A stretch of DNA of 62,772 nt from Nitrospira sp. (GTDB taxonomy: Bacteria; Nitrospirota; Nitrospiria; Nitrospirales; Nitrospiraceae). The DNA lies in the NCBI GenBank assembly GCA_005116885.1, contig SWDP01000004.1:1-62772 (forward strand). Direction: 5' to 3'. Every line of letters starts with the position of its first letter. Position 1 is the stretch's first letter. The translations under genes and the position numbers were made by a program. Below are positions 30,897-57,292 of the stretch, piece after piece. Under the pieces are notes generated by a model. That model did no database searches and was not told the DNA's origin. It worked only from the letters and a program-made list of their open reading frames with translations.

Positions 30897-32717
30897 TCAA
30901 CTGCGAGACGGCGCGTTCTTCGAGAGAGCTTTCCGCATCTGCGCGATGGTCTTGGTATTGAGGCCGGCTGCTATCAATTCGTCGTCCGTGGCGGCAGCAA
31001 CGTTCGTCAGGCTTCCATATTTTTTGAGCAATCGGGCCCGTGTGATTTCGCCGATGCCTCCCACCTGATCGAGCGGCGAGGCCATCAAGGCCTTGCCACG
31101 TAACTTGCGATGAAAGGTGATCGCAAATCGATGGGCCTCGTCACGAATGCGCTGCACGAGATGGGTGGCTGGGGAGTTCGCCCGGAGCACGATGGGATTT
31201 TTTCGACCGGGAAGGAAAATCCGCTCGTCCTTCTCACCGCGTGCTTTGGCCAGACCAATAATTGCCAGGCCCTGATGGCCAACCTGTCTCAGCCCTTCCA
31301 TGGCCGCGGCGAGCTGACCTAACCCTCCATCGATGAGGATGAGATCCGGACGCGCGAGATTCTCGCTGTCTCTGTACCGTCGCATAACGACTTCCTGCAT
31401 GCTGGCGAAATCGTTGGCGCCGGTCACGGTTTGAATCTTGAAACGGCGGTAGTCGGCTTTCTTCATCTGACCATCTTCCCATACGACCATGGAGGCGACA
31501 GACTGATTGCCCATGGTGTTGGAAATATCGAACCCTTCGATACGGCGAGGCGCGATATCCAGCCGTACGAGCCGCTTGAGTTCTTCAATGGCCTGCCGTC
31601 CAATTTCTTCATCTCGCAAATGATTGGCCACAGCGGCGGCGGCGTTTTCTTCTGCTAAGAGAAGCAATTGATGCTTCACACCTCGCTCAGGGGCCACGAC
31701 ACGGACGGCGTTTCCTCGTTTCCCCGAGAGCCATTCTTCGATGACCGTCGCGTCGTCAAGGTCGCTGGGTATGAGCAGTTCTTTGGGTGGCTGACCATCC
31801 TTGTTGTAGAACTGCTCAATGGCGGATCGAACCAGTTCCTCGTCTCCGGCGTCGGCTGAATGGGGCCAGAAGAAATCTTTGCGTCCGATGAGCAGGCCGC
31901 CCCGCACGAAGAGAATCTGGAGATCGACCGCCGAGCCTTGCCGTGCCAGCCCGATCACGTCTTGGTCTGTCGTCGTCGTTTGGGTAATACGCTGCTTTTC
32001 GAGTGTGCGCTCGATATTGAAAAGCCGATCGCGCAAGCGCGCCGCCTCCTCGAATTCCTCACGCTCCGCTGCCGCTTCCATCTGGACACGCAGGTCGTCC
32101 AGTAATTCACGGTCGCGCCCTTCCAGAAACTGTCGCACCTGCGCAACGATGTGATGGTAGTCCTCTTTCGATTGATTGCCGGTGCAGGGAGCCATGCATC
32201 GTTTGATCTCGAATTCGATACAAGCTCGTTCAGCCTTGCCGTCTATGAGGATCGTACAAGTGGCTAACGGAAAAGCTTTCTTGATGACTTTCAACGTCTC
32301 CCGCAAGGCTCCTGCCGGTGTGTAGGGACCATAGTAGAGTGCGCCATCTTGTTGCACGCGGCGAACGATGGAGAGGCGAGGGAAGTCTTCTTTGATCGGC
32401 AGTCGGAGGTAAGGGTATTGCTTATCGTCCCGTAAGACCACGTTGAAACGAGGCCGATGCTGCTTGATCAGATTGCTTTCAAGTATGAGCGCTTCGAGTT
32501 CCGATCGGGTGACGATCGTTTCGATATCCACAATGTGACTGACCAGGACGGTGGTTTTCTGAGAGTGGTCGGCCCCTTTTTGAAAATAGGACCTTACTCG
32601 GTTGGACAGAACTGCGGCTTTCCCGATGTAGAGTAATTCGCCCTGCCCATCTCTGAACAGATAAACCCCCGGCTGGTCTGGGAGATGGTCGAGTTTGGAT
32701 TGAAGGATGTTGGTCAT
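30897..32717 (-). CDS. uvrC: Excinuclease ABC subunit C
   Basis: 606 residues. N-terminal GIY-YIG nuclease domain (PGVYLFRDGQGELLYIGKA), a Cys-rich cluster region (CMAPCTG), a UVR/UvrB-interacting domain (about 200-240), the C-terminal RNase H-like nuclease (IEGFDISNTMGNQSVASMVV; DLILIDGGLGQL) and terminal helix-hairpin-helix (about 545-600). It makes both incisions in nucleotide excision repair together with UvrA and UvrB; uvrA is 10 kb away. The start codon lies inside a heptamer repeat word (array 32713). Confidence 0.95.
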   Translation of the reverse strand: MTNILQSKLDHLPDQPGVYLFRDGQGELLYIGKAAVLSNRVRSYFQKGADHSQKTTVLVSHIVDIETIVTRSELEALILESNLIKQHRPRFNVVLRDDKQYPYLRLPIKEDFPRLSIVRRVQQDGALYYGPYTPAGALRETLKVIKKAFPLATCTILIDGKAERACIEFEIKRCMAPCTGNQSKEDYHHIVAQVRQFLEGRDRELLDDLRVQMEAAAEREEFEEAARLRDRLFNIERTLEKQRITQTTTTDQDVIGLARQGSAVDLQILFVRGGLLIGRKDFFWPHSADAGDEELVRSAIEQFYNKDGQPPKELLIPSDLDDATVIEEWLSGKRGNAVRVVAPERGVKHQLLLLAEENAAAAVANHLRDEEIGRQAIEELKRLVRLDIAPRRIEGFDISNTMGNQSVASMVVWEDGQMKKADYRRFKIQTVTGANDFASMQEVVMRRYRDSENLARPDLILIDGGLGQLAAAMEGLRQVGHQGLAIIGLAKARGEKDERIFLPGRKNPIVLRANSPATHLVQRIRDEAHRFAITFHRKLRGKALMASPLDQVGGIGEITRARLLKKYGSLTNVAAATDDELIAAGLNTKTIAQMRKALSKNAPSRS

Positions 32718-32818
32718 TGGTCAATGGTCAGCAGTCAATAGTAGTTCGCCCGGCCATGATGTCATTGGCAGCTATCTTACCAATGACTGATGGCCAGTGA
32801 CTATTGACTATCGTCCGT
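32713..32818. repeat. Heptamer-armed hairpin between uvrC and four-helix gene
   Basis: Left arm GGTCATT, GGTCAAT, GGTCAGC, AGTCAAT; core with GGCCATGATGTCATTGG; right arm CCAATGA, CTGATGG, CCAGTGA, CTATTGA, CTATCGT. The left edge supplies the uvrC start codon; the right edge supplies the stop codon and the last residues of the four-helix-bundle gene. Core and arms are shared with the array at 34154. Confidence 0.8.
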
Positions 32819-33205
32819 CCGCTTAGAGGTGCCGATGCTGCGTATATAGCCGTTTAGGAGTCGGATAAATGTCAGTAGTTCTTGCTGAAGCGAGTCAGTA
32901 TGATCTTGGGCGAGGCACTCAAGATCGTGATAGGCAATCAAGTGGTCGATGAGTTCGTACGCAGATCCCCGGGAGATATGACAGAATTGAATGTTTTCTT
33001 TGAAATGGAATCGGCCGTATCCTTCAGCCACGTTTGCAGTGAGTGAGACAGCAGCGCGTCGAATTTGAGAAGCCAAATTATAGCGTTCTTGAGGCGGAAG
33101 CTTGTCGGCTATCTCATAGCAGCGATTTCGAATGGCTCTGCCGACTCGCCAGACTTCCAAGTCTTGGAATGTTCGAATCGTTTTCCCGCTAACCTGCTCC
33201 ACCAT
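32801..33205 (-). CDS. Four-helix-bundle protein (23S rRNA intervening-sequence type)
   Basis: 134 residues. The pattern TFQDLEVWRVGRAIRN, then LASQIRRAAVSLTANVAEGYGR and RGSAYELIDHLIAYHDL, is that of the S23/four-helix-bundle family, first found in intervening sequences of 23S rRNA genes and also common as free chromosomal genes. Function unknown. The gene is enclosed by heptamer arrays: its ATG lies in a word (TCAATGG), and its last residues and stop come from AGTCAATAG. This intimate link suggests the gene and arrays move or evolve together. Confidence 0.85.
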   Translation of the reverse strand: MVEQVSGKTIRTFQDLEVWRVGRAIRNRCYEIADKLPPQERYNLASQIRRAAVSLTANVAEGYGRFHFKENIQFCHISRGSAYELIDHLIAYHDLECLAQDHTDSLQQELLTFIRLLNGYIRSIGTSKRTDDSQ

Positions 33206-33263
33206 TGACTATTGACCCATGACCGTTGACGCTTCCTTACCGTTGACTGATGACCAATGACCT
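33200..33263. repeat. Heptamer array between four-helix gene and dapF-like gene
   Basis: Words CATTGAC, TATTGAC, CCATGAC, CGTTGAC, a short break, CGTTGAC, TGATGAC, CAATGAC. All are in one orientation (no opposed arm is obvious). It covers the whole intergenic space. Confidence 0.75.
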
Positions 33264-33264
33264 C

Positions 33265-34134
33265 TTAGCGCAACGACCGCACGAAGGAGGGACTAAGACT
33301 TCCCCGCGCGACTTCCTCGACCGGCCCCTTCATGGTGAGACTGAAATCATGGGCGACCTGGATGTTGAGCTGCCCTCCCGGCATCTTCACCGTCACAGGG
33401 CTTTTCACTAACCCGAGCCTGACTGCTGCACTCGCCGCAGCACAGGAGGAAGACCCTGAGGCCTGGGTTTCTCCGGCCCCACGCTCCCAAATAAGGATGA
33501 AGAGTTCCTTCGGGCCGGTCGGCACAGCGAGTTGCACGTTCGTTCGCTTCGGGAACAAGACATGGTTTTCTAATATCGGTCCCAAATTGAGGAGATCCTC
33601 GCGCGACCAGGACTGTCCGATTGGTTTGAACACGACACAGTGGGGATTGCCGACGCTGACTCCGGTAAAGGTCAGCGATCGGCCCGCCGCCTCAATGGGC
33701 TGTTCGATCAGTTCGTTGGCAGTGAGAGTGCAGGGAAGTGATGCGGGCTCGAATGTGGCTCGACCCATTTCGACAGTGACGCCACTCGCATCTCCAGCCC
33801 GGTCTACATGCAACGTCACCGTAACCAAACCGCCTTTGGTCTCAACGGTGAACAGCTTCCTTTTCGTCTTGCCGGTCGCGTGAAGGTAGCGGGCAAAGAT
33901 GCGAAGGCCGTTGCCGGATTTTTCTGCTTCGCTGCCGTCAGGGTTGAAGATTCTCAGACCGAAATCGGCTTTCTTTGACTGGACACACGCAAGGATCCCA
34001 TCGCTGCCGAGCCCCCAGTTCCGATCGCAGATCGTCTTGATCCTCGATGGAGTGAGCGAGAACGATAGTTCTTTGGGGTCCATCACAATGTAGTCGTTGC
34101 CCAGCCCATGACCGCGAAAGAATCCGTTCTTCAT
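33265..34134 (-). CDS. dapF: Diaminopimelate epimerase-family protein with Ser in place of both catalytic Cys
   Basis: 289 residues from the ATG at 34134 (GGAGG seven bases upstream). The two-domain DapF fold is clear (FRGHGLGNDYIVMD; NPDGSEAEKSGNGLR; GVSVGNPHCVVF; ERGAGETQASGSSSC). DapF normally interconverts LL- and meso-diaminopimelate in the lysine and peptidoglycan pathway using two Cys, as acid and base. Here both positions are Ser (Ser73 codon TCC, Ser226 codon TCA), although most surrounding substrate-binding residues remain. I recall such Ser-type members annotated as dapF in other phyla, so activity on diaminopimelate is not certain. Gene lies between heptamer arrays. Confidence 0.8.
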   Translation of the reverse strand: MKNGFFRGHGLGNDYIVMDPKELSFSLTPSRIKTICDRNWGLGSDGILACVQSKKADFGLRIFNPDGSEAEKSGNGLRIFARYLHATGKTKRKLFTVETKGGLVTVTLHVDRAGDASGVTVEMGRATFEPASLPCTLTANELIEQPIEAAGRSLTFTGVSVGNPHCVVFKPIGQSWSREDLLNLGPILENHVLFPKRTNVQLAVPTGPKELFILIWERGAGETQASGSSSCAAASAAVRLGLVKSPVTVKMPGGQLNIQVAHDFSLTMKGPVEEVARGSLSPSFVRSLR

Positions 34135-34153
34135 TCTTGCAACCTCCAAGATT

Positions 34154-34287
34154 CGTCAATGGTCAATTGTCATTGGTCAATGGTCAGTAGTCAATAGTCG
34201 TTCGCGCGGCCAAGATGTCTTGGCAGCTATCCGGCCAATGACTGTTGACCTTTGACTATTGACCTCTTGCTTGACCGATGACTTTGG
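34154..34287. repeat. Heptamer-armed hairpin between dapF-like and VOC genes
   Basis: Left arm GTCAATG, GTCAATT, GTCATTG, GTCAATG, GTCAGTA, GTCAATA; core TTCGCGCGGCC followed by AAGATGTCTTGG; right arm CCAATGA, CTGTTGA, CCTTTGA, CTATTGA, then two more after a break. Core is shared with the array at 32713. Confidence 0.85.
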
Positions 34288-34686
34288 CTAGACGATCTTC
34301 ACATTGGGCGGGCGCTCGATCAATTCAACTTCGTACCCGTCCGGGGCATCAATGAAAATGAAGCGGCTTCCGGAAGAGGTTGTGGTCGGCCCGTCCGTCA
34401 CCTTGACACCCTTCGCATTGAGCGACGCAATGGTGTCATCGAGGCTCTCTACCTGAAAGGCGAGGTGGACGAGGTCTTCCTGAACTCTCACTGGCCCGCT
34501 CGGAGGAAAACTGGTCAGCTCGATCAGTTCTTCGCTGTTCGGTACTTTTAAGAAGGCCAGGTGCGAACCACGCGGCGAAACCTTTCGTTCCAGCACCTCA
34601 AGCCCAAGCACATCCGTGTAGAACTGGATCGTCTGTTCCATGTCGCTGACCCGCATGCGGGTGTGGAGGAGTTTCTTGACCTTCAT
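34288..34686 (-). CDS. gloA: Glyoxalase/VOC-family protein
   Basis: 132 residues from the ATG at 34686 (GGGAGCG upstream). Two beta-alpha-beta-beta-beta modules of the vicinal oxygen chelate fold: LLHTRMRVSDMEQTIQFYTDVLGL, ...LIELTSF, ...VHLAFQVESLDDTIAS, ...FIFIDAPDGYEVELIE. Metal ligands expected of glyoxalase I are His (LLHTR), Glu (ELIELT), His (VHLAF) and Glu (YEVELIE), and all are present. Lactoylglutathione lyase activity is likely by family; the thiol cofactor in this organism is unknown. Confidence 0.8.
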   Translation of the reverse strand: MKVKKLLHTRMRVSDMEQTIQFYTDVLGLEVLERKVSPRGSHLAFLKVPNSEELIELTSFPPSGPVRVQEDLVHLAFQVESLDDTIASLNAKGVKVTDGPTTTSSGSRFIFIDAPDGYEVELIERPPNVKIV

Positions 34687-34697
34687 GGTGTCGCTCC

Positions 34698-34817
34698 CGG
34701 TCAACGGTCAATGGTGAAGAAGGTCAACAGTCATTGGTCAAGGGGAGGACTCAACGAAGAAAGGCCCCTACGCCTCAGTCTCTTTACATTTGACCGTTGA
34801 CCAATGACTATTGACTC
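34698..34817. repeat. Heptamer-armed hairpin between VOC and GNAT genes
   Basis: Left arm GGTCAAC, GGTCAAT, GGTGAAG, AAGGTCAAC, AGTCATT, GGTCAA; right arm TTTGACC, GTTGACC, AATGACT, ATTGACT. The right arm reaches into the GNAT gene, giving its stop TAG and the codons of its last residues (Lys-Ser-Gln). Confidence 0.8.
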
Positions 34818-35287
34818 TTCTCCCTTACTGGTCCCGCCGTCTTGCGCAGCAGAATTTCTGCACTGCCAGGGATCAGAAAATCCGGCATGGGGCCAATCTC
34901 CTGGTAACCCTGTTTCTTGTAAAATTTCCGGCCCTGGTCGTTGAAGTCCGATACGCAAGCGAACAAGTTCTTTACCCTCGCAAACACAGCTTCTTCGGCA
35001 TGAGTGAGCAACTGTCCCCCTAGCCCCTTGCCTCTCGCCCAGCCCGCCACTCCTAACAGTTCCAAATAATCGCCGAGTAAGAATTTCTGACGAACGACCG
35101 CAATGCCGGCCACTCTGCCATCCTGTTCCACAACAAAGCTGTCACGCCCCTGGGGAAGCGGTGTGAAATAGCTGTCCCAATCTTTGGCTTGATAGCCCAG
35201 ACGTTTCCAGGGATCGGCATCTGCCAGCAATTCCACGACAGCAGCTCGATCGTTCGCCGTCATGAGCCGCACGATCGAGTGATTCAT
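34808..35287 (-). CDS. GNAT-family N-acetyltransferase
   Basis: 159 residues, one acetyltransferase domain. The acetyl-CoA loop is LGVAGWARGKGLGGQLL (about 78-94; R/Q-x-x-G-x-G/A motif RGKGLG). The N-terminus IVRLMTANDRAAVVEL and the C-terminal FYKKQGYQEIGPMPDF complete the fold. Substrate unknown. Its end KSQ then stop is encoded by a repeat word. The start overlaps the stop of the deacetylase gene (ATGA). Confidence 0.85.
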   Translation of the reverse strand: MNHSIVRLMTANDRAAVVELLADADPWKRLGYQAKDWDSYFTPLPQGRDSFVVEQDGRVAGIAVVRQKFLLGDYLELLGVAGWARGKGLGGQLLTHAEEAVFARVKNLFACVSDFNDQGRKFYKKQGYQEIGPMPDFLIPGSAEILLRKTAGPVREKSQ

Positions 35288-35994
35288 GGGGCTGCCTGGC
35301 CACAGGACAAAAGCTCACTCACGGTCATGGGGGTGAGGTTGCGCTCCGGCAAGAGATGTTGATGGAGATCTTGCACCACCTCATGCGTATGTTGGCCCTT
35401 CCCGTTCGCATGCATGACGACGATACTTCCCTTCCGGACAAATCGCTTCAGCCGACCCTCGATTTGGATCGCCGTGAGCGTGGGGTCGGGATCGCCGGAC
35501 ACGACATTCCATAGAACGAACTGGAGACCGCGTGCGCGGGCCACATTGACCGTATCATCGTTGAACTCTCCGTAGGGAGGACGAAACAGGGTCGCATCAT
35601 GTTCATACTTGGTTTTGAGCAAGCGAACCGGTCCGAGCATTTCTCGCTCCTGCTCCTCCGCCGAATGGAAGGGCATATGCTGGTGGACGTCCCCATGGGT
35701 ACCGATTTCAAAGAATGGGACCTGGAGAAGGGCTTTTACTTGCCGATCATGCTTCGTCATCCATTTCCCGGACATGAAGAAGGTGGCCGGGATTTTCCGC
35801 TCAATCAAATAGTCGATCAGGGCCTGATCATAGCCTGTGCCATTCCTCACCGGGCAAAGATCGAATGTGAGCGCCACACCGGGACAGGAAAGCGGGCCCG
35901 ACGTAATCACTTGGGCCTGCGTAGCAGAAGGCATCGCTGGGATAAGCAGCATTGCGAGGATAAGGCACAGCATGTGTGGGAAGTAACGCGGCAT
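35284..35994 (-). CDS. Secreted polysaccharide deacetylase (NodB homology)
   Basis: 236 residues with a signal peptide (about 1-27, PAMPSATQAQ). NodB motifs: ALTFDLCPV (first Asp kept; second metal-binding Asp is Leu, as in the TFDxC subgroup), HGDVHQHM with His ligands, FRPPYGEFND, and near the C-terminus IVVMHANGKGQHT. It probably removes acetyl groups from peptidoglycan or another envelope polysaccharide in the periplasm. It overlaps the downstream GNAT gene by four bases, so the two are likely cotranscribed. Confidence 0.85.
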   Translation of the reverse strand: MPRYFPHMLCLILAMLLIPAMPSATQAQVITSGPLSCPGVALTFDLCPVRNGTGYDQALIDYLIERKIPATFFMSGKWMTKHDRQVKALLQVPFFEIGTHGDVHQHMPFHSAEEQEREMLGPVRLLKTKYEHDATLFRPPYGEFNDDTVNVARARGLQFVLWNVVSGDPDPTLTAIQIEGRLKRFVRKGSIVVMHANGKGQHTHEVVQDLHQHLLPERNLTPMTVSELLSCGQAAP

Positions 35995-36016
35995 GGTGGC
36001 AAGTATACCTGATCCC

Positions 36017-36167
36017 GCAGGCTGCTCAAAATGGCCGTCCTCTTCGCGCGAAGTTTGTCTGGTTCATCTGGTCTATTTGGTTAATCTGGTTCAACCAAAC
36101 AAACGAGACAGACCAAATAAACCAAATGACGGTCTTCTTACGCTGGCGGACTTTTTCAGCAGCCTGC
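36017..36167. repeat. R5: terminal-inverted-repeat element with nonamer arms
   Basis: Ends GCAGGCTGCTCAAAA and (inverted) GCAGGCTGCTGAAAAA. Inside, 9-bp words TCTGGTTCA, TCTGGTCTA, TTTGGTTAA, TCTGGTTCA face ACCAAACAA, ACGAGACAG, ACCAAATAA, ACCAAATGA. The part CTTACGCTGGCGGACTTTTT is shared with R6 at 41317. It lies in the leader of the protease gene. Confidence 0.85.
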
Positions 36168-36205
36168 CGTTGACGCTCGAATTCCCGCACTGTTACGGTA
36201 AACAC

Positions 36206-37357
36206 ATGGTATTGCCCAATTGGAAAATCGGCCGTGCGCTTGGTATCCCGATTCACCTGCATGCCTCCTGGTTTGCCGTATTTTTCTTTGTGACCTGGTC
36301 ACTCGCGACAGACTATTTACCCGATACGTTGCCTGGGCTATCGGTTCCGCGCTATTGGGGAATGGGTGGTATTGCTGCCCTCCTGTTGTTCCTCTCCGTC
36401 CTTCTACATGAACTGGGACATTCGTATGTGGCGCTGCGCTATCAGATCCCTATCCGACAGATTACCTTGTTCATTTTCGGGGGAATGGCGCACATGGGAA
36501 AAGAGCCGCCCAGTCCGCGTGCCGAGTTCTTGATCGCAATCGCAGGACCGCTCGTTAGTGTGATCCTGGGAGCCGGTTGTCTCGGCGGAGCCATCGCCAT
36601 GGAATCATTATTTTCACAGCCAGGAATGAAAGGGCTTGTCGCCCTTGGGAGCCTGCTGGGCATGGTGAATATGCAGCTTGGACTGTTTAATCTGATCCCG
36701 GGGTTTCCGTTAGACGGAGGGCGTATCTTACGGGCTGGTCTGTGGGCTCGAAACAAAGATTTTCATCGAGCCACCAGTCAGGCCGCATTCGTCGGGATAG
36801 GATTCGGTGTCGCGCTCGGGTTGGGCGGTATGGCCCTGATGGTAGGCGCCTGGTCGGGGTTCCTGAGTCAGTCGATCACGACGAACGGGGTCTGGCTCAT
36901 GTGTATCGGCGCATTCCTCTTTGCAGCAGCCTTGAATCACAAGCGACAGGCGGCCCCACGGATATTGTTAGCATCGGTGACCGTTCGCCAGGTCATGGTC
37001 CACCGCTCCGTGACCTTGTTGCCGGATATGAGCGTGCAGGACGCGGTCGATCAATACTTTGTCGCGCAGGGATATGGCGCATTCCCTGTGTGCGAAGAGG
37101 GACAGGTTCTCGGGGTGGTCACCGTGCGAGACGTACAGGCGCTTCCCACAGCCCTCTGGCCATGGCGCCGCGTTCGCGAGATGATGCGTCCGACGTCGCC
37201 GGCGCTCTGTATCCCACCAGACTGGTCCATCATGCAGGCGATGGACCGCATGGCCCAGGCCGGCCTCGATTGTCTCGTGGTGATGGAGAGCGGAGAGATT
37301 GTCGGGCTGGTCACCCGATCGGCTATCGCACAGTACGTACAGTTGCACAAGGCGTGA
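36206..37357 (+). CDS. Site-2-type membrane metalloprotease with CBS domains
   Basis: 383 residues starting at ATG 36206; the longer frame upstream only reads through the R5 repeat. Membrane core with the zinc motif HELGH (LLHELGHSYVALRY) and the second-half motif FPLDGGRILRAGLW, both typical of the S2P/Rip family, about six membrane segments. The C-terminal 140 residues contain two CBS modules (VTVRQVMVHRSVTLLPDMS; VREMMRPTSPALCIPPDWS) which bind adenine nucleotides in homologues. Function: cleaves membrane-bound substrates such as anti-sigma factors, by family; substrate unknown here. The stop TGA lies in a heptamer word. Confidence 0.88.
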   Translation: MVLPNWKIGRALGIPIHLHASWFAVFFFVTWSLATDYLPDTLPGLSVPRYWGMGGIAALLLFLSVLLHELGHSYVALRYQIPIRQITLFIFGGMAHMGKEPPSPRAEFLIAIAGPLVSVILGAGCLGGAIAMESLFSQPGMKGLVALGSLLGMVNMQLGLFNLIPGFPLDGGRILRAGLWARNKDFHRATSQAAFVGIGFGVALGLGGMALMVGAWSGFLSQSITTNGVWLMCIGAFLFAAALNHKRQAAPRILLASVTVRQVMVHRSVTLLPDMSVQDAVDQYFVAQGYGAFPVCEEGQVLGVVTVRDVQALPTALWPWRRVREMMRPTSPALCIPPDWSIMQAMDRMAQAGLDCLVVMESGEIVGLVTRSAIAQYVQLHKA

Positions 37358-37456
37358 GATGTGAAAGGTTAGAGTTAACGCGTCAAGAGATCGAAAGAGT
37401 TTTCACTGCCACTCCTCGCACCTTACGTTTCACTTTTCACCTTTTACGTTTCACGC
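37354..37456. repeat. Heptamer-armed hairpin between protease and membrane-protein genes
   Basis: Left words GTGAGAT, GTGAAAG, GTTAGAG; right words CACCTTA, CGTTTCA, CTTTTCA, CCTTTTA, CGTTTCA. The left word includes the stop codon of the protease gene and the right arm ends next to the stop of the convergent gene. Confidence 0.8.
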
Positions 37457-38824: not shown

Positions 38825-38837
38825 GAGGGGCTCCCTT

Positions 38838-39035: not shown

Positions 39036-39115
39036 GATCAATTTGTAGAGCAGGAACCGGGGCCGCGCGGGTCACCGCAACTTCCACAAGCGCCTCCACC
39101 ATTACCCGGCAGCAC

Positions 39116-41001: not shown

Positions 41002-41100
41002 GAGAAGAGACAAGCCTATTTCCGCTAGTGATCACAGCACTCCGATTGACTTTGTACTTGGGTGGGGTGGAAACTGAACATAGCTCACAGCGGAGGTGCC

Positions 41101-41316: not shown

Positions 41317-41448
41317 GCAGGACGCTCAAACTGGTTTGTTTTGTTTATCTGGTTTATCTGGTTTGTCTGGTTTAACCAAACAAACGAGACAAACCAAACA
41401 AACCAAATAACGGTCTTCTTACGCTGGCGGGCTTTTTCAGCATTCAGC
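41317..41448. repeat. R6: terminal-inverted-repeat element with nonamer arms
   Basis: Ends GCAGGACGCTCAAA and (inverted) GCTGAATGCTGAAAAA. Internal words TCTGGTTTA (twice), TCTGGTTTG, TCTGGTTTA face ACCAAACAA, ACGAGACAA, ACCAAACAA, ACCAAATAA. Same layout as R5. Its right end runs into the stop codon of cax. Confidence 0.85.
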
Positions 41449-44005: not shown

Positions 44006-44130
44006 CAGAAAAAGTCCAGAAGCCAACAGGCTAATTTGGTCTATCTGGTTGATCTGGTTTGTTTGGTTTATCTCAGTGCTCTTCTTCAACCAAATAGACG
44101 AGACAGACTAGATCAACCAGAAAAACCGGT
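44006..44130. repeat. R7: decayed nonamer-armed element
   Basis: Words TTTGGTCTA, TCTGGTTGA, TCTGGTTTG, TTTGGTTTA on the left and ACCAAATAG, ACGAGACAG, ACTAGATCA, ACCAGAAAA on the right. The outer ends are degenerate compared with R5 and R6 (GAAAAAGTCCAGAAGC on the left). Just before the end of yihY. Confidence 0.65.
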
Positions 44131-46768: not shown

Positions 46769-48327
46769 CGCGACGGGCCTTGAGCCGTCAGCGGCTCTCT
46801 GCTCCCCACCAGCAGTGACTCTGTGGTCCCTCCGGCAGAGGGATGGGCAGTGGGCGCAACTTTCGCGCGGGACATGGAGGCAATGGTGTTGGTCACACTC
46901 TGATGCATTCGACTGACGAGCGGATTGGGGTAGAGCCCGATCCAAAATACCAGCACAACCAGTGGGATCAGGGTGGCGAGTTCCCGTTGATTCAGGTCGC
47001 TGAGTTTCGGGAGATGGTGCGGGGACGGGACCCCGAAAACCACGCGCTGGATCATCCAGAGAAGATAGGTGGCAGCGAGAATAATGCCCAACGAGGCCAG
47101 GGCAGTCGCGACCTTGCTCCAGAGGAACGTACCGACAAGCACGAGAAATTCTCCGACAAAACTATTGGTGCCGGGGAGACCGAGCGAGGACAAGGCGAAA
47201 ATCACCAACAGCGTGGCGTACTGCGGCATCGGCGCGGCCAATCCGACATTGTCGGCGATCAACCGGCTATGGGTACGCTCATAGATGATCCCGACACAGA
47301 GGAAGAGCCCGCCGGTCGTAATCCCATGGTTGACCATTTGAAGAACGGCTCCTTCGATGCCCTGCTGGTTCAACACAAACAGGCCAAGAGTAATGAACCC
47401 CATGTGGCTCACGCTCGAATAGGCGATCAATTTCTTGAGATCGACTTGGGCCAGCGCCATATAGGCGCCGTAAATAATTGCGATGATAGAGAGGGCGACC
47501 ATCAGGGGCGTGAAGGCGAGGCTGGCATCCGGCAACATCGGCAAACTGAATCGAAGGAATCCATAGGTGCCCATTTTCAGAAGGATGCTGGCGAGAATGA
47601 CGCTGCCCGCGGTCGGGGCCTCGACGTGGGCATCCGGGAGCCAGGTGTGAAAGGGAAACATGGGGACCTTGACCGCAAAGGCGGCGAAGAATGCTAAGAA
47701 GAGCCACATTTGCAGCGACGCCGGGTAGGTGCCTTGGCTCAAGGCAAGGATATCGAACGTGTGTCCTCCATAAAAATACAACACAAGGATGGCCACTAAG
47801 AAGAGCACGCTCCCTGCGAGGGTATACAGAAAAAACTTGATGGCCGCATAGAGCCGGTTGGGCCCTCCCCAGACACCGATCAGGAGGTACATCGGAATCA
47901 ACATGGCCTCCCAAAATACATAGAACAGTATGAAATCCAACGCGACAAAGACCCCCACCATAGCCGTTTCCATCACCAGCAATGTGGCCATGAAGCCGCG
48001 GACACTTGTTGTGATCGCATTCCAGGAGGCCAAGACACAGAGAGGCATAATCCCGGCGGTCATCAAAACCAGCGGAAGACTGATTCCGTCGAGACCCAGG
48101 CTGTAGTAGATCGGAGGGGCTGTAATCCAGGCGACATGTTCCGTGAACTGCATCTGAACGGCCTGTGGATCGAAGAGCCACCAGAGCGGAAGCGCCACCA
48201 ACAGGTCGGCCAAAGTTGCAACCAGTGCAATCCAGCGAGCGGCCGATTCTGTCGCGAGATACACGGCGACAGCTCCCGCAAGGGGCAGCACGAGGAGGAG
48301 TGAAAGCCAGGGAAAGGAACTGGTCAT
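46765..48327 (-). CDS. nuoM: NADH:quinone oxidoreductase subunit M
   Basis: 520 residues from the ATG at 48327; the start codon lies inside the heptamer array at 48322. Antiporter-like membrane subunit with about 14 segments, containing FYVFWEAMLIPMYLLIG (Glu for proton channel), FPFHTWLPDAHVEAPTAGSV, DLKKLIAYSSVSHMGF. A polar tail of about 40 residues after the last membrane segment is longer than usual. The stop overlaps nuoN. Confidence 0.95.
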   Translation of the reverse strand: MTSSFPWLSLLLVLPLAGAVAVYLATESAARWIALVATLADLLVALPLWWLFDPQAVQMQFTEHVAWITAPPIYYSLGLDGISLPLVLMTAGIMPLCVLASWNAITTSVRGFMATLLVMETAMVGVFVALDFILFYVFWEAMLIPMYLLIGVWGGPNRLYAAIKFFLYTLAGSVLFLVAILVLYFYGGHTFDILALSQGTYPASLQMWLFLAFFAAFAVKVPMFPFHTWLPDAHVEAPTAGSVILASILLKMGTYGFLRFSLPMLPDASLAFTPLMVALSIIAIIYGAYMALAQVDLKKLIAYSSVSHMGFITLGLFVLNQQGIEGAVLQMVNHGITTGGLFLCVGIIYERTHSRLIADNVGLAAPMPQYATLLVIFALSSLGLPGTNSFVGEFLVLVGTFLWSKVATALASLGIILAATYLLWMIQRVVFGVPSPHHLPKLSDLNQRELATLIPLVVLVFWIGLYPNPLVSRMHQSVTNTIASMSRAKVAPTAHPSAGGTTESLLVGSREPLTAQGPSR

Positions 48328-48412
48328 CGGTCGATAGTCAATTGGCAATGGGCATTGGCAAGAGAACTGCTGTTCATGATTCCCCTGGACCAGTAACCAT
48401 CGACCATTGACG
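48322..48412. repeat. Heptamer-armed hairpin between nuoL and nuoM
   Basis: Left words GGTCATC, GGTCGAT, AGTCAAT, TGGCAAT, GGGCATT; right words CCAGTAA, CCATCGA, CCATTGA. The left edge contains the nuoM start codon; the right arm ends just before the nuoL stop. Confidence 0.75.
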
Positions 48413-48416
48413 CTCC

Positions 48417-50315: not shown

Positions 50316-50322
50316 CAGGAAT

Positions 50323-50424
50323 CGTCTCTCGTCGTTCGTCGTTCGTGAAGCGCCCCGGACGAACAATATCCCAACGCACGTAATCCGTCTGTTACGAACG
50401 ACGCTTCACGCTTCACGAAAGACG
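50323..50424. repeat. Heptamer-armed hairpin between nuoK and nuoL
   Basis: Left words CGTCTCT, CGTCGTT, CGTCGTT, CGTGAAG; right words ACGAACG, ACGCTTC, ACGCTTC, ACGAAAG. A different word from that of the other nuo junctions. Ends a few bases before the nuoK stop. Confidence 0.85.
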
Positions 50425-50430
50425 GGTTCT

Positions 50431-50736: not shown

Positions 50737-50745
50737 GAAATCCTC

Positions 50746-50832
50746 GTGATGAGTGATGGGTGACGGGTGACGGGTATGCTCTTCGATATGTCACATCGTC
50801 TTCGCATCACTGATCACCCCTCACTGTTCACT
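50746..50832. repeat. Heptamer-armed hairpin between nuoJ and nuoK
   Basis: Left words GTGATGA, GTGATGG, GTGACGG, GTGACGG; right (reversed) ATCACTG, ATCACCC, CTCACTG. The right arm lies inside the nuoJ end and encodes its last residues (Asn-Ser-Glu-Gly) and stop. Confidence 0.8.
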
Positions 50833-51335: not shown

Positions 51336-51442
51336 TTCACCTCTTTCTCTATGCCTTAGGAGCCTGCCCGCTCCACAGTCCGTGGCGCGTCCCACGACGT
51401 GGCTCGAAACGGCGAGCCCTTCGAACCGTACACATGGGCAAT

Positions 51443-51991
51443 TCAGCCGGGTTTTTGCGGCAGGTGCTTGAACGCAACGTTGAAGAACGCCACATTCGGA
51501 TGTTGGAGCTCCAACTGCTTTTCTCGAACCGGGAACGATCGATCGCCGATGGCGAGCAATTGTTCCTTGTTGAGATGCAGTTGCCGCTTGTCGTACACAG
51601 ACCACTCGAATTCCCGCGTCATGCCGAGAGCATCTACCGGACAGGCATCGACACACAACCCACAAAACAGACAGCGGGTCATGTCCATATAATATTCTTT
51701 CGAGAAGCGCTTCGTCGGCTCGCCCGGCACCTCAGCGCTAACCACGCGAATGACCCGCGAGGGACAGGCGGCTTCGCACAAATCGCAGCCGACACATTTT
51801 TCCGTCCCGTCGTCGTACCGCAACAAGGCCAGCATCCCGCGATAGTTATCCGGCAACGTCCGCTTTTCGTGCGGGTACTGCTCGGTGACCGGTCGGTAGT
51901 GCAACATATGCGACATCGTCGCTTTCATCCCGATGAGGATTTCGTAGAACGTGATGGTCTTGATCCACGCCTTGAACGTCATTGTTACCAT
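51443..51991 (-). CDS. nuoI: NADH:quinone oxidoreductase subunit I
   Basis: 182 residues. Two ferredoxin-type [4Fe-4S] motifs, CVGCDLCEAACP and CLFCGLCVDACP, for clusters N6a and N6b in the peripheral arm. The ATG at 51991 has TGAGGGC before it; nuoJ starts about 108 bases downstream. Confidence 0.95.
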   Translation of the reverse strand: MVTMTFKAWIKTITFYEILIGMKATMSHMLHYRPVTEQYPHEKRTLPDNYRGMLALLRYDDGTEKCVGCDLCEAACPSRVIRVVSAEVPGEPTKRFSKEYYMDMTRCLFCGLCVDACPVDALGMTREFEWSVYDKRQLHLNKEQLLAIGDRSFPVREKQLELQHPNVAFFNVAFKHLPQKPG

Positions 51992-51996
51992 GCCCT

Positions 51997-52067
51997 CAGC
52001 GATCAGCTTTCAGCGGTCAGTTTCATCGAGATTCGAATCCAAGCTGACAGCTGATAGCTGACAGCTA
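51997..52067. repeat. Heptamer-armed hairpin between nuoH and nuoI
   Basis: Left words CAGCGAT, CAGCTTT, CAGCGGT, CAG; right words CTGACAG, CTGATAG, CTGACAG. The centre is a perfect 10-bp palindrome GATTCGAATC (52030-52039). Confidence 0.8.
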
Positions 52068-52074
52068 CGTTGCT

Positions 52075-53196
52075 TCACCGCGGGAAAAAATACAGAGTAA
52101 TCGACGTGATGATGATGTTCGCCAGTGCGATCGGCAGCATGACCTTCCAGCCAAACCGCATCAATTGATCGTAGCGCAGTCGGGGCAACGTCGCGCGTAT
52201 CCAGATGAACAGGAAGAGGAAAAAATAAACTTTTGCCGCAAACCAGACGATGTGTTCCACCCATGCCAACTGTTCGAGACCGATGTACTCTAAGATCGTG
52301 CCAGGATAGGGAGCGTTCCACCCCCCCAAGAACAGCGCAGAAGCGACGCAGGACACCAGTGTCATATTGGCGTATTCCGCGCTGACGAAGAAGGCGAACC
52401 GCATACCGCTATATTCCGTAAAGAATCCAGCCACAAGTTCGCTTTCCGCTTCCGGCAGATCGAATGGGATACGGTTCGTTTCGGCCACAGCAGAAATGAT
52501 AAAGACAACAAAGGCAAAAATTTGGGTGTGGATCGGGAAGAATCCGTCCGGGCGTCCTCCCCAAATGAACCAATGCCAGAATCCGCCCGACTGCGCTTCT
52601 GTAATTTGTACTAGACTGAGAGTGCCCGCCAACATCAGCACGCCGACAAGTGCCAGCCCGACGTTTAATTCGTAGCTGATGACCTGGGCTGCAGCGCGCA
52701 AACCTCCCAGTAATGAGTATTTGCTGTTGGAAGCCCAACCTCCCAGAATAATGCCGTACGCGCCGATCGAAGCAATTGCCAGGATGTACAGCACCCCGAT
52801 ATTAATATCGGCGACGACGAAGGGTTTAATCGTGATTCCATAAATGTCCAAGGTGATGTTCGGGCCGAAGGGGATGACGGCGAATCCGATCATGGCTACG
52901 ACCATGGTCAGCATTGGCGCCAGAGCAAACATCGCCTTATTCGCACCGGCCGGCACAATGTCTTCCTTAAAGAACAATTTGATGCCATCGGCGACCGGTT
53001 GGAGAAGGCCGTAGGGGCCGACTTCCATCGGGCCCATACGATCCTGCATCCAGCCAAGCACCTTCCGCTCGAAATAGGTCAAGGTCGCGACCGTGATCAT
53101 CACAATACTCATCTCTGCCAGGATCTGGGCGAACGTCACCGCAAGCCGCAAGCTTAACTCCGTCACGACAACACTCCCGGATAACAAGTGGAACAC
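52075..53196 (-). CDS. nuoH: NADH:quinone oxidoreductase subunit H
   Basis: 373 residues, about eight membrane segments. Motifs FERKVLGWMQDRMGPMEVGP and FKEDIVPAGAN in the quinone-chamber region, ETNRIPFDLPEAESELVAGF with the charged cytosolic loop, GLRAAAQVISYE. It lines the quinone entry and couples it to proton pumping. Confidence 0.96.
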   Translation of the reverse strand: MFHLLSGSVVVTELSLRLAVTFAQILAEMSIVMITVATLTYFERKVLGWMQDRMGPMEVGPYGLLQPVADGIKLFFKEDIVPAGANKAMFALAPMLTMVVAMIGFAVIPFGPNITLDIYGITIKPFVVADINIGVLYILAIASIGAYGIILGGWASNSKYSLLGGLRAAAQVISYELNVGLALVGVLMLAGTLSLVQITEAQSGGFWHWFIWGGRPDGFFPIHTQIFAFVVFIISAVAETNRIPFDLPEAESELVAGFFTEYSGMRFAFFVSAEYANMTLVSCVASALFLGGWNAPYPGTILEYIGLEQLAWVEHIVWFAAKVYFFLFLFIWIRATLPRLRYDQLMRFGWKVMLPIALANIIITSITLYFFPR

Positions 53197-53215
53197 ACCA
53201 TAGATTCTCGCCCGC

Positions 53216-55882
53216 TCACGTTGTTTTCATCACCGACACGGACACCGTCCGAAAGGATGGAACTTTTGTGTCGGGATCGACGACACAGTCAAAGAGCCGT
53301 AAGGCGTCCTGCGCGAAATGATCGGGGAACCATGCCAAGCCCTCGGGCACACGATCAAAGACTTTCGCCGTGGTTGTGAATTCACCCCGCCTATTCGAAA
53401 GACGGACTCGATCCCCCGTCGTGAGACCAAACCGTGCCGCATCCACGGGATTCATTTGCAAGTATCCGCTCGGTTCAACCTCCAGCAATCCCTTCGAGTA
53501 GGTCGAAAGCTTCCCTGAATGGAACAGGCTCTGGACCAGCCCAAGTTCGACGGTTCCCTCCTGACGCACGGTTCGTGACGGCAGAGTATACCGACCCGCA
53601 AGGTCCCGGCGATACCCATCGGTCATGTACTGCTCGACAACCCTAGGATTCACTGCGGGAGGGATCGGCGAGGGACCGAGCGAGCCGTAACCGGGAATCA
53701 CGGCCCGGATCTCTTTGAGAATCTCTTTGCTCTCGCCGTATTCCAACGGTACACCGGTGAACACTGAGATGGCTGACAGAATTTCCCAGTCTGGCCGGCT
53801 GTCTCCCAGCGGATCGATTGCAGGCCGAACAGCTTGGACGTGGCCCTCCGTATTGGTAAAGGTTCCGGCCTTCTCCATGGAAGGGGCAGCCGGGAGTACC
53901 ACATGGGCAAGCGCCGCCGTCTCCGTGAGAAACAGTTCCTGGCACACAAGAAGATCGAGCTTGCTCAGCGCCTCTTTGACTCCAGTCTGCGGCGGAAGGC
54001 TCCCGACAGGATTTTCTCCGATGACGAAGAGTCCTTTGATGATCCCGGCATTGGCGCGATCGATCATTTCGATCAGAGTGGCCCCTGCCGTCGACGGAAG
54101 ATCCTCTTTCCAGGCACGAGTGATCTGCGCACGCGCAGCCGCATCGGTAAGGTCATGTGCGCCCGGCAGCAGTGCCGCAACCGCGCCCATTTCAATCGCT
54201 CCTTGATCGTTATTCTCTTCCGCCAAGGGAGCAAACCCGCAACCCTGTGTGGTCAGCTTCCCAGTCAAGAGAAGTAGATCCAGGAGATTGACACAGATGC
54301 CGTAACCGCCTTGGCTGCGGAGCAACATCTGACCGGCAAGCACGACGACGCGGCGCCCTCCGGCCAATGAGGCGGCCATCTGCACAAACGATTCACGCGG
54401 CACCCCGGTGCTCACAGCCAGATCGTCCCAGGCTAGCTGCTGGACAGCGTGCGAAACGGCTGAGACATAGTCCGACGCCCCCTGCCGGACTGTACTGTCG
54501 ACGTGGTTGCCCTCAACCACTGCCTTCAGCAAACCCAGGACGGCTGCGCCGAACTGCGACGGTGCGATACAGAGATGCTGTTGGGACAAGTTAGAAATGT
54601 TGCTAATCGTGCCGATCGCGGGCTGGATCGCCTCAATCGTCAACAGTGTCGCGCCGTGTTTCTTGACGGCTTCTTTGACTTTAAGCCCAGTGATCGGATT
54701 CGCTTCAGTGATATTGGTGCCGACCAAGAGCAGGACGTCTGCGTGCACGATGTCCTCGAACGTCACGGTCCAGCGGTGTGTGCCCTGCACCAATCGCATC
54801 GCCTGCACTCCGTTGATATGGCCGTATCGTGCACTGCTATCGAGGTTATTCGTCCCGATTGTGAGGCGCATAAATTTCTGGAACAGATACAGTTCTTCAT
54901 TGGTACAGCGGCCTGAAATCAGCCCGCCGAAGGCCTGCGGGCCATGCGCGAGTTTGAGCCGATTGATCTGTTCAGCCACAAACTCCAACACGTCTTCCCA
55001 CGTGGTTTCGACCAGCGCGCCGTTCCGTCTGATCAGCGGATGGGTCACTCGGCTAGGATGGCTCGTCGCGCGAAATCCAAAAAACCCGCGCGCGCACAGA
55101 TCTCCGCTGTTCCGACCGGCGCCCTGGGCACTGTTTACCTCGATCAACTGCTGGTCCTTGGTTTGAACCGTGATCTGGCATCCGTCCCCACAAAAATTGC
55201 AGACCGTGTCGGCGCGTTTGAGCATCCAGGGACGGTATTCGTACATCGAGAGCCGGCTGACGATGGCGCCGACAGGGCAAATCTGCACGCAGCCGCCGCA
55301 GAATTCGCAGTCCAAGGGATGGTCGCCGAATGACTTGATCTCGGTCATTGTGCCTCGTCCTACCGGGGCGAGAGCCTTGACGTCCATCACCTCGTCGCAG
55401 TAGCGGACACAGCGCAAACATTGCACGCACCGGTTCATCTGCGTTTCGATCAAGGGGCTGAAATATTCCTTCTGGAAAATACGCTTGGTTTCCTCAAACC
55501 GGCTGGTCGCAGTGTATTGATGGGAAAAGTCCTGAAGGTCGCACTTCCCCCCCTGATCGCAGACCGGGCAATCTAATGGATGATTGGCCAGGATGAATTC
55601 AAGCACCGACTTGTGAGCATTGTGCACAACCGTCGTGGCGGTTCGAACGGCCATGCCTTCGGTCGCCACAGTACTGCAAGAGGTCTGGAGCTTCGGCATC
55701 CGTTCGACTTCGACCAGGCACATACGACAATTTGCATCCGGCTTGAGTTTCGGATGGTAGCAGAAGTGCGGGACCATCACGCCGACACGACGAGCCGCTT
55801 CGATCACCAAGGTACCTTTCGGCACCGAGACGGACATACCGTCGATCGTTAAGCGGACGGTCTCTGTGATAGCGTTAACCAT
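53216..55882 (-). CDS. nuoG: NADH:quinone oxidoreductase subunit G
   Basis: 888 residues. N-terminal [2Fe-2S] domain (CYHPKLKPDANCRMC), His-Cys3 [4Fe-4S] motif (HPLDCPVCDQGGKC), two further [4Fe-4S] motifs (CVQCLRCVRYC; CEFCGGCVQICP), then a molybdopterin-oxidoreductase-like part starting with CNFCGDGC and a fourth Cys 27 residues later (C-x2-C-x3-C-x27-C), the site of cluster N7, present also in some bacteria but absent from mitochondria. No catalytic molybdenum centre is expected. Peripheral arm subunit that wires electrons from NuoF. Confidence 0.95.
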   Translation of the reverse strand: MVNAITETVRLTIDGMSVSVPKGTLVIEAARRVGVMVPHFCYHPKLKPDANCRMCLVEVERMPKLQTSCSTVATEGMAVRTATTVVHNAHKSVLEFILANHPLDCPVCDQGGKCDLQDFSHQYTATSRFEETKRIFQKEYFSPLIETQMNRCVQCLRCVRYCDEVMDVKALAPVGRGTMTEIKSFGDHPLDCEFCGGCVQICPVGAIVSRLSMYEYRPWMLKRADTVCNFCGDGCQITVQTKDQQLIEVNSAQGAGRNSGDLCARGFFGFRATSHPSRVTHPLIRRNGALVETTWEDVLEFVAEQINRLKLAHGPQAFGGLISGRCTNEELYLFQKFMRLTIGTNNLDSSARYGHINGVQAMRLVQGTHRWTVTFEDIVHADVLLLVGTNITEANPITGLKVKEAVKKHGATLLTIEAIQPAIGTISNISNLSQQHLCIAPSQFGAAVLGLLKAVVEGNHVDSTVRQGASDYVSAVSHAVQQLAWDDLAVSTGVPRESFVQMAASLAGGRRVVVLAGQMLLRSQGGYGICVNLLDLLLLTGKLTTQGCGFAPLAEENNDQGAIEMGAVAALLPGAHDLTDAAARAQITRAWKEDLPSTAGATLIEMIDRANAGIIKGLFVIGENPVGSLPPQTGVKEALSKLDLLVCQELFLTETAALAHVVLPAAPSMEKAGTFTNTEGHVQAVRPAIDPLGDSRPDWEILSAISVFTGVPLEYGESKEILKEIRAVIPGYGSLGPSPIPPAVNPRVVEQYMTDGYRRDLAGRYTLPSRTVRQEGTVELGLVQSLFHSGKLSTYSKGLLEVEPSGYLQMNPVDAARFGLTTGDRVRLSNRRGEFTTTAKVFDRVPEGLAWFPDHFAQDALRLFDCVVDPDTKVPSFRTVSVSVMKTT

Positions 55883-55894
55883 GGTCCTGTTGAC

Positions 55895-57208
55895 TCAATG
55901 CCTTCCTGCCGGCTCCAACTTGATCAGGTTCGCGGCCTCTGCTTCCTGAATCAGTGCGACGTATTCAGACCGCCAATGTTTGAGCGTGCCCATGATCGGC
56001 GCCACTGATGCATCGCCGAACGCGCAGACCGTTCGGCCTTCGATGTTCTTGCATAGATCGACCAAGGTTTCAAGGTCCTCCATCCGCCCCCGCTTCGCGA
56101 CGATTCGGCGCATGGTCTGTACCAGCCAGGAGCTTCCCTCGCGACAAGGGCTGCACTTGCCGCACGACTCATGATAGAAAAACTCCATGAGCCGGAGCGC
56201 AGCCCACACCATGTCTGTCCCCTCTTCCATCACGGTCACCCCACCGGAGCCGAGCATAGAGCCGGCTGCGGCAACGGACTCAAAGTCGAGCTTGACGTCG
56301 AGGTGGTTCGGCGTGAGGAACGGCGCTGATGCCCCCCCGGGAATGAATGCCTTGAGAGGTATGTCGGAGCGCATGCCCCCGGCGTGCTCATAGATCAATT
56401 CGCGGAAAGTGATCCCCATCGGCACTTCGTAATTCCCCGGCCCTTTCACATGGCCGCTGACGCAAAACACTCTGGTGCCGGTGCTCTTCGGTGGAGAACC
56501 GATCGAGGCGAACCATTCAGGGCCTCGGCCGACAATGTGCGGGAGGTTCGCCAGAGTCTCGATGTTGTTCACCACGGTCGGCTTGTTGTAGAGACCGTGT
56601 GTCGCCGGGAAAGGGGGCTTGACGCGCGGCAGACCCCGCTTGCCTTCGAGCGACTCCAGTAAGGCTGTTTCTTCCCCGCAGATATAGGCGCCAGCGCCTC
56701 GATGCACCCATACATTGGCGGTGATTCCTGCGCCCAGGATATTCGTGCCGATATAGCCGGCGGTCCGTGCTTCGGCAATCGCCCGCTCCAAAATCCTGGC
56801 CCCAAGGACGAATTCGCCCCGTATATAGATGTAGGCGGTTTCTGCCCCGATCGCGTAGCACGCGAGTACGATACCTTCCAAGATCTGATGGGGATCCCGC
56901 TCAATGAGCTGGCGGTCCTTGAACGTCCCTGGCTCACTCTCATCCGCGTTGCAACAGAGATAGCGCGCCCCCTGATAGCCCTTGGGCAGGAAACCCCATT
57001 TCACGCCGGTCGGGAAACCTGCGCCACCACGCCCGCGGAGCCCTGATTTCATGACCATGGCAGTCACTTCAGCCGGCGGCACCTTCCCTACAACCTTGCG
57101 GAGTGCCTGATAGCCGCCTGCGCGCTCGTAATCTTGGAGCGAGCCGGTATAACCCGGCTGCATCATATTCTTGAGCAATATCAGTTCGTGCTTGGGCATG
57201 GTTACCAC
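55895..57208 (-). CDS. nuoF: NADH:quinone oxidoreductase subunit F
   Basis: 437 residues from GTG 57208, or 434 from ATG 57199 (MPKHE). Binds NADH and FMN: GLRGRGGAGFPTGVKW (glycine-rich loop), CNADESEPGTFKDR, and the [4Fe-4S] site ESCGKCSPCREG (Cys) with a later Cys. Heptamer array begins right at the start. It receives electrons from NADH and passes them to NuoE/NuoG clusters. Confidence 0.95.
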   Translation of the reverse strand: MVTMPKHELILLKNMMQPGYTGSLQDYERAGGYQALRKVVGKVPPAEVTAMVMKSGLRGRGGAGFPTGVKWGFLPKGYQGARYLCCNADESEPGTFKDRQLIERDPHQILEGIVLACYAIGAETAYIYIRGEFVLGARILERAIAEARTAGYIGTNILGAGITANVWVHRGAGAYICGEETALLESLEGKRGLPRVKPPFPATHGLYNKPTVVNNIETLANLPHIVGRGPEWFASIGSPPKSTGTRVFCVSGHVKGPGNYEVPMGITFRELIYEHAGGMRSDIPLKAFIPGGASAPFLTPNHLDVKLDFESVAAAGSMLGSGGVTVMEEGTDMVWAALRLMEFFYHESCGKCSPCREGSSWLVQTMRRIVAKRGRMEDLETLVDLCKNIEGRTVCAFGDASVAPIMGTLKHWRSEYVALIQEAEAANLIKLEPAGRH

Positions 57209-57292
57209 AAGTGAAAAGGTAAAAGTGAAAAGGTAAAAGTGAGATGCTTGCCAGCCAACATTTTACTTTTAACCTTTTACTTGCGCCTTCGG
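57207..57292. repeat. Heptamer-armed hairpin between nuoE and nuoF
   Basis: Left words AAGTGAA, AAGGTAA, AAGTGAA, AAGGTAA, AAGTGAG; right words CATTTTA, CTTTTAA, CCTTTTA, CTTGCGC. The right arm encodes the last residues (Gln-Val-Lys-Gly) and stop of nuoE. Confidence 0.85.

Follow-up and report, generated by a model that had tools for sequence, protein, structure and literature searches.

Tandem-word hairpins at Nitrospira gene junctions as probable members of an intervening-sequence-like element family associated with S23 genes

We analyzed a 62,772-nucleotide stretch of a Nitrospira sp. genome (GenBank assembly GCA_005116885.1, contig SWDP01000004.1, positions 1 to 62,772; hereafter the window), in which hairpins built from short tandem words occupy many gene junctions and one site inside a gene. 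Between dapF and uvrC, on the minus strand, lies a gene for a 134-residue S23 protein (32801..33205) of the 23S-rRNA-intervening-sequence protein family (PF05635/TIGR02436; 23S_rRNA_IVP), a four-helix protein like 2gsc and 2rld with the fold of the retroelement protein Avd. Inverted arrays bracket this gene. The array at 33196..33265, the 5' arm (on the S23 strand) of an S23-gene element, consists of GTCATTG, GTCATCA and GTCAATA words, with the S23 start codon in its last unit; it is complementary, with a score of 30, to the 32704-32742 side of hairpin A (32704..32815, GTCAATR; fold z -4.3 on the plus and -4.6 on the minus strand), which doubles as the 3' side of the element.

The other window hairpins contain no S23 gene. 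Two further GTCAATR hairpins lie upstream of dapF (C, 34150..34272; fold z -6.6/-5.3, plus/minus strand) and at 34697..34820 (D, GTCAATR/GTCAACG; -4.1/-5.1), the latter with an arm word matching S23 locus L295, and a worn GTCAATR-like copy lies at 48318..48415 (G; -1.3/-2.7). GTGAAAR-type words form hairpins E (37354..37456; -5.1/-1.2) and K (57205..57285, GTGAAAA/GGTAAAA with a period of 14, or 2 x 7; -4.5/-1.8 for 57200-57290), and a GTGAAAC/G hairpin lies in frame (25126..25245; -1.1/-2.9) within a HerA-like open reading frame (ORF) at 23648-26182. Three nuo spacers are occupied: nuoK-nuoL (H, 50316..50430; -1.5/-1.4), nuoJ-nuoK (I, 50737..50813, GTGATGR/GTGACGG; -1.4/-1.9) and nuoH-nuoI (J, 51992..52074, AGCTGAT; -5.1/-3.9). 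A family with 9-base units, TGGTTTRTY, has three sites: 36054..36130 (-3.9/-7.2; S23 arm match L294), 41328..41412 (-6.5/-7.6; S23 arm match L279) and approximately 44030..44110, the last located from a lag-9 census and the sequence. Folded as RNA on both strands and compared with shuffles, 10 of 12 window hairpins (44030..44110 lying outside this set) reached z <= -2.5 on at least one strand.

By eye, tandem heptamers with inverted partners were present at all ten places that an initial annotation of the sequence had listed, nine junctions and the intragenic site; every listed site was real, but the list had missed the three 9-base sites. At 50323 the arms mix two words, CGTCGTT and GTGAAGC (by eye). 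None of the outcomes that the initial annotation had named as refuting arose, and the excess of period 7 that it predicted was found: the window holds 5 lag-7 tracts and 1 lag-9 tract (at least 17/21 matches), against 0 of either across 20 dinucleotide shuffles. We extended the count to 463 kb, comprising the window and two 200-kb stretches (contigs C18 and C46; N excluded, cut-off at least 16/21), and found 31 tracts at lag 7, 18 at lag 9 and none at lags 8 and 10; the multiples 14, 18 and 21 gave 14, 15 and 9 tracts, and all other lags from 4 to 24 gave at most 4. As only 7, 9 and their multiples are prominent in these 463 kb, this genome has two unit lengths, and several words coexist within it. 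The density of heptamer arrays is uneven in this genome, with 3 in the 200 kb of C18 versus 17 in the 200 kb of C46.

GTCAATR-like words occur at at least four window sites (32713, 34154, 34698 and the worn copy at 48322) and GTGAAAR-type words at three (25133, 37354 and 57207), and because words recur between sites the earlier claim of one word per site is too strong, and only partly true. Nor does the claim hold that sites lack sequence identity with each other: words are shared across the genome and the genus, and the GTCAATR hairpins at 34150-34272 and 32704-32815 have a common core (GTTCGCSCGGCCAWGATG...GGCAGCTATC; by eye). The core GTTCGCSCGGCCAWGATG...GGCAGCTATC also lies upstream of dapF in a relative (L045). 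A tally of GTCA-family units was set aside, its outcome being forced by its own search pattern. Elsewhere in the window, the ORF at 57923-59968 contains a heptamer run (59681-59715; GTAAGAC/GTAAAAA/GTGAAAC/GTGAGAG) with no obvious inverted partner.

Bracketing by inverted word arms is common among S23 genes. We aligned the 160 bases upstream of each gene to the reverse complement of the 240 bases downstream, with a cut-off score of at least 26. In a first set 74 of 90 S23 loci reached the cut-off, compared with 8 of 264 called genes of 300-900 nucleotides from the window's own genome; one of these eight is the window S23 gene itself, and five others adjoin lag-7 or lag-9 arrays. Scores of letter-shuffled flanks reached 28 at most, with the 99th percentile at 23. 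When all testable loci are taken, which span the genus and five or more further phyla, 122 of the 156 S23 genes lie between inverted tandem-word arms, the window copy included. S23 loci were fetched best-scoring first, both within the genus and beyond it, and most of the remaining genus loci were then added, which brought the genus to 131 loci; its matches number 143, as some genes matched in two pieces. Because of short flanks, L228, L351, L366 and L376 were dropped from the S23 loci. TIGR02436 is present in 28 of 32 genus genomes and in 0 of 14 named control genomes. Among the 105 S23 loci with a clear arm period it is 7 in 77, 8 in 13, 9 in 12, 6 in 2 and 4 in 1, and period-7 arms have a median of 4.6 units. 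The 5' arm is G-rich relative to C, with G > C in 102 of 122 and G < C in 17, versus 69 and 44 in comparison windows 60 bases upstream. Among the loci listed, arms often run up to the neighboring gene at either end, the array containing or adjoining the stop codon of the upstream gene or the start codon of the next one (by eye). Two loci stand apart: S23 locus L320 (Anaerolineales) has flanks scoring 56, with apparently nested word arrays in both orientations, and the called gene at C18:47185-47982 in the window's own genome (G000) has strongly complementary flanks scoring 176, and is perhaps an insertion sequence.

The word follows the S23 lineage. When the word families that have at least two members (13 families, 69 loci) are placed on a tree of 77 S23 proteins from the genus, they need 15 changes, where the minimum possible is 12 and the smallest among 300 shuffles was 45; word families and junction clusters were both built by single linkage, which merged some related words (w00, w01). 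Among S23 pairs without detected flank similarity, a word is shared by 14 of the 20 that have at least 70% identity, mostly within one family, by 3 of the 40 with 60-70%, and by 0.4-4% of those below 60%. The three S23 genes of the window's own genome carry GTCAATR (window, score 30), GTGATGR (L244, score 25) and AGCTGAT (L218, score 29), and all three words are also used by window hairpins. Each of 14 window arms matches an S23 arm from the genus more closely than its 20 word-permuted copies do on average, and 13 beat the best of the 20; permutation was in blocks of 7, and so is only rough for the two 9-mer arms.

Array number also tracks S23 number. Outside S23 loci, the eight genus genomes with a cognate S23 hold 0-12 copies of GCNTATGGC (median 7), versus 0-6 (median under 1) in the 24 without (p=0.0003), and the 9-mer likewise co-occurs with its cognate S23 (p=0.007); a reversed-pattern control was invalid, as the reversed 9-mer pattern fits the 9-mer family too. 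The summed count of three patterns correlates with S23 number (rho 0.68), also with genome size removed (rho 0.58, p=0.0005), and is 0-2 in the four S23-less genomes.

Orthologous sites are variously empty, occupied, or occupied by a different hairpin (nuo word groups were assigned by eye). At nuoJ-nuoK, 7 of 18 genomes have no hairpin, the genes overlapping by ATGA, and 11 have spacers of 70-94 bases in three word groups. At nuoK-nuoL, 2 of 18 have a 10-base spacer and the other 16 fall into five word groups; G012 (L075) and G016 (L078) have a left arm of GTCAATG and a right arm of AGTGCTG, as if one arm had been replaced alone. The 17 readable nuoH-nuoI junctions comprise 7 of the AGCTGAT type, several of them worn, and 10 of the 9-mer type. 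Between dapF and uvrC, S23 copies are found in the window's genome, G004, G018 and G005, and most other relatives have S23-less hairpins with other words (by eye). At least two word families occur in 7 of the 16 S23 junction clusters that have at least two members.

The most telling case of turnover is the intragenic site in the HerA-like ORF. This site is bounded by conserved codons for MDPVK, MEPVK or MDPIK on one side and RPLLPPDVP or RPMLPPDVP on the other, between which the window's genome and G001 have GTGAAAC, G003 and G010 an 8-base GGGGTAAA-type word, and G007 GGACTGA/AGTGCTG (hairpins by eye); all five hairpins are in frame. Three hairpins of different words in one in-frame site argue for exchange as a block, as stepwise mutation hardly does so. 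We sought an empty version of the site (25133) and found none, all four relatives that span it carrying a hairpin; G006 (L417) matches the region in two parts, with the site itself uncovered.

Such exchange bears on whether the hairpins originated where they stand: polymerase slippage might create the arrays and template switching (quasi-palindrome correction) their inverted partners, with S23 genes as passengers in permissive spacers. Seven-base units are over-represented in many bacteria, for which a polymerase-footprint explanation has been proposed (PMC4692102); the window's genome and G004 differ by one unit at dapF (by eye); and arm units pair better in register than when unit-shuffled in 62 of 78 loci, a count biased by the choice of arms by their pairing. 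Local processes do not readily explain why whole hairpins are exchanged for another word and unit length, in frame and at nuo junctions, why this genome's units are 7 and 9 but not 8 or 10, or why word tracks S23 lineage and array number tracks S23 number. Purely local copying, as the initial annotation had envisaged, is not supported: orthologous hairpins are exchanged whole and words match S23-flanking arms. Slippage as the sole cause is weakened by block exchange; local origin stays a rival, and an unlikely one.

Occupation of identical junctions in many relatives could instead reflect use by the host, as terminators or as stems for RNase III processing or RNA stability, selected at fixed junctions while their words drift freely. 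The good folding of 10 of 12 window hairpins and the co-directional called ORFs flanking 25 of 36 intergenic array clusters agree with such a role. Against it, nuoJ-nuoK is empty and nuoK-nuoL reduced to ten bases in some relatives, as described above, and one hairpin lies within coding sequence; selection for pairing alone would moreover leave the tandem words, the 7- and 9-base periods and the link to S23 unexplained. We regard a host function as very unlikely to be the main explanation.

The initial annotation had also proposed a shared enzyme, for example a repetitive extragenic palindrome (REP)-associated tyrosine transposase (RAYT) or a reverse transcriptase. The idea was worthwhile, and S23, which it did not name, fits it; both named partners lack support. 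Movement of REP-like elements, or of REPINs, by a RAYT (Y1) transposase, or retroelement copying by a reverse transcriptase, would suit the dispersed inverted pairs at gene ends; Y1_Tnp occurs in 19 of 32 genus genomes and reverse transcriptases in 8, and S23 structurally resembles the Avd of diversity-generating retroelements (DGRs). But RVT_1 is absent from 24 of the 32, including the window's own genome (84% complete), and 13 lack Y1_Tnp, among them the array-rich G016, G042 and G017. The 400 bases to either side of the domain are free of lag-7 arrays in 20 Y1 loci, including L394 from the window's own genome (a second match there, on C5, was outside this set); at Y1 locus L402, 9-mer arrays lie 330-425 bases upstream. 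In the narrow (160/240-base) flank test, 0 of 17 Y1 and 0 of 12 reverse-transcriptase loci scored at least 26, but as these domains do not fill their ORFs the scores are weak controls; with 500/900-base windows, 7 of 17 Y1 loci scored at least 26, with no null measured. We consider both extremely improbable. Reverse-transcriptase or telomerase-like synthesis was rejected on the same absence of RVT_1.

The association of hairpins with S23 extends beyond the genus. An exact search for three GTGAnnn units and three inverted matched at least 119 stretches, where simple arithmetic gives a chance expectation of about 0.03; the 80 listed loci come from Acidobacteria, Chloroflexi, Bacteroidetes, Gemmatimonadetes, Verrucomicrobia, Armatimonadetes, Proteobacteria classes, Phycisphaerae and others. 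Of 28 genomes hand-picked from these 80, 25 have S23, and 21 of 29 S23 loci from the picked genomes have arms scoring at least 26, with many different words; a Mesorhizobium S23 locus has a long GGCAGTA run. In Bacteroidota, S23 is present in 185 of 247 genomes, the S23-negative ones being in part inferred from their absence among the matches, and all 19 genomes with the GTGA hairpin pattern are S23-positive (Fisher p=0.003; p=0.004 when G058, selected because of its hairpins, is left out).

These elements are reminiscent of the 23S rRNA intervening sequence (IVS) of Coxiella and Leptospira, in which an S23 ORF lies in the loop of complementary termini. As described for Coxiella (PMC4990558), the IVS has an S23 ORF, complementary termini and 2-3 tandem heptamers on the 5' side, in strain-variable number; it was proposed earlier that the IVS ORF serves mobility. 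In contrast to rRNA IVSs, the hairpins here occur at many gene junctions and even within a gene, use many words, include S23-less forms and are exchanged at orthologous sites. Because the window S23 copy lies between dapF and uvrC, and not in 23S rRNA helix 9, 25 or 45, it is IVS-like and not an rRNA IVS. Tandem heptamers in spacers are also known from Xanthomonas (GGGAATC) and Nostoc (GGGGAYT), where they were studied as G-quadruplexes, two Xanthomonas genomes having 70 and 75 inverted pairs and Nostoc few (PMC4692102); unlike here, each genome studied there has a single word family. The S23-fold protein 2gsc is encoded by Xanthomonas campestris; XCC0516 is not named in the text of PMC4692102, and the sections used here make no link to S23. 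The TAACTGA repeats of marine Beggiatoaceae (2015, PMC4679880) are likewise abundant intergenic tandem heptamers, but almost all direct, with one inverted repeat; in the text of that paper 'intervening', 'helix bundle' and 'Avd' are not mentioned ('S23' itself was not searched for). A 2019 survey names heptamer satellites, including (GATAGRA)n in Chloroflexus. PF05635 has been likened to Avd (PMC10053308), and in the part of PMC10910872 available the S23 domain is named in a figure legend only. Among the papers listed in our searches of the open-access PubMed Central literature, we found none linking S23 genes with tandem-word hairpins outside rRNA.

The view of the initial annotation that no REP, miniature inverted-repeat transposable element (MITE) or clustered regularly interspaced short palindromic repeat (CRISPR) family fits is supported, though less clearly for MITEs. 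REP/REPIN-RAYT systems combine dispersed inverted pairs, a gene-bearing copy flanked by matching sequence and gene-less derivatives, with one conserved palindromic consensus per genome. The window family has such inverted pairs, gene-bearing copy and gene-less derivatives, but with a different protein and tandem variable words in place of one conserved palindrome, and no Y1 gene flanked by array repeats was seen in the 20 Y1_Tnp loci examined. Compared with MITEs, arms are shared with S23 copies, S23 is no known transposase, and the empty nuoJ-nuoK site offers no clear target duplication. A DGR would need a reverse transcriptase, for which the window's own genome has 0 RVT_1 matches. CRISPRs have 20-40 nucleotide repeats and unique spacers, unlike the 7-9 nucleotide units here, which have no spacers. 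The cyanobacterial short tandemly repeated repetitive (STRR) sequences, degenerate tandem heptamers in spacers, are the good analogue they were said to be, and the window arrays are of this kind, though STRR is a descriptive class and not a defined element.

We conclude that the hairpins are real and widespread, and that an IVS-like element family with a word code, located outside rRNA, is the best place to file them. The window hairpins are probably members of a dispersed, selfish family of such elements, which may contain S23 or lack it and each have a cognate word. In this family a full element would consist of tandem words of 6-9 nucleotides, an S23 gene and those words inverted, with one word per S23 lineage; the S23-less hairpins would be derivatives that kept the arms around a short core. 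We infer that S23 reads its word and promotes the spread or upkeep of hairpins written in it. It would act in trans, binding the tandem word in RNA or single-stranded DNA with approximately one word per subunit, and bound S23 would protect the hairpin or have host enzymes of replication or repair copy it into further sites, at exposed hairpins or gene ends. An exposed hairpin (a cruciform, or one on the lagging strand) may be a preferred target, and a preference for existing hairpins would explain exchange at fixed positions. RNase III may cut the hairpin in transcripts, as is known for rRNA IVSs (PMC4990558), and such cutting would make operon insertions tolerable.

More tentatively, and with rather less than an even chance in our estimation, S23 proteins could be ring-shaped word readers, each lineage specific for one word of 6-9 nucleotides, one word per subunit, and driving hairpin spread. 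Two solved S23 relatives have five chains per crystal entry, which fit a five-membered ring and do not prove a ring in solution. Rings of the trp RNA-binding attenuation protein (TRAP) bind tandem triplets. With five members and about one word to each subunit, a ring would account for the unit length being fixed and for the median unit number of 4.6.

Several observations weigh against the assignment of the window hairpins to an S23-driven family. S23 is not known to have a catalytic domain or site, and host enzymes would therefore have to do the copying; no transposition intermediate was seen, and no clear target duplication at the empty nuoJ-nuoK site. At the cut-off, 34 of the 156 S23 loci lack arms, including L244 from the window's own genome. 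The control genes come from that genome alone, in which three of the word patterns are scarce, so that the base rate in array-rich genomes may be higher. The word-S23 link comes mostly from orthologous loci (the 77 loci fall into 26 junction clusters), and elsewhere depends mostly on a single family. The assignment of cognate words to S23 was by eye, the co-occurrence of the 8-mer with its cognate S23 was not significant among the 32 genus genomes (p=0.10), and the cross-genome counts ignore phylogeny and include many incomplete genomes. In G015 solo hairpins persist and no S23 was found. Within the window, 50316-50430 and 50737-50813 fold no better than shuffles on either strand.

Taken across bacteria, the arrays and the arms of S23 genes suggest a large, little-recognized family of word-specific mobile hairpins. 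Such a family would bring together three loose ends: the seven-base repeats that are in excess in bacterial spacers, the S23 proteins, so far unexplained, and the hairpins by which operon spacers are shaped. If S23 proteins are indeed word readers, they would define a kind of mobile element based on a protein-word code, without relation to transposases and found across many bacterial phyla, that takes in the rRNA IVSs and probably also the heptamer repeats of Xanthomonas and others. Because its copies are written in different words, they would be missed by sequence-similarity searches, and a common class of selfish DNA would have gone largely unannotated.

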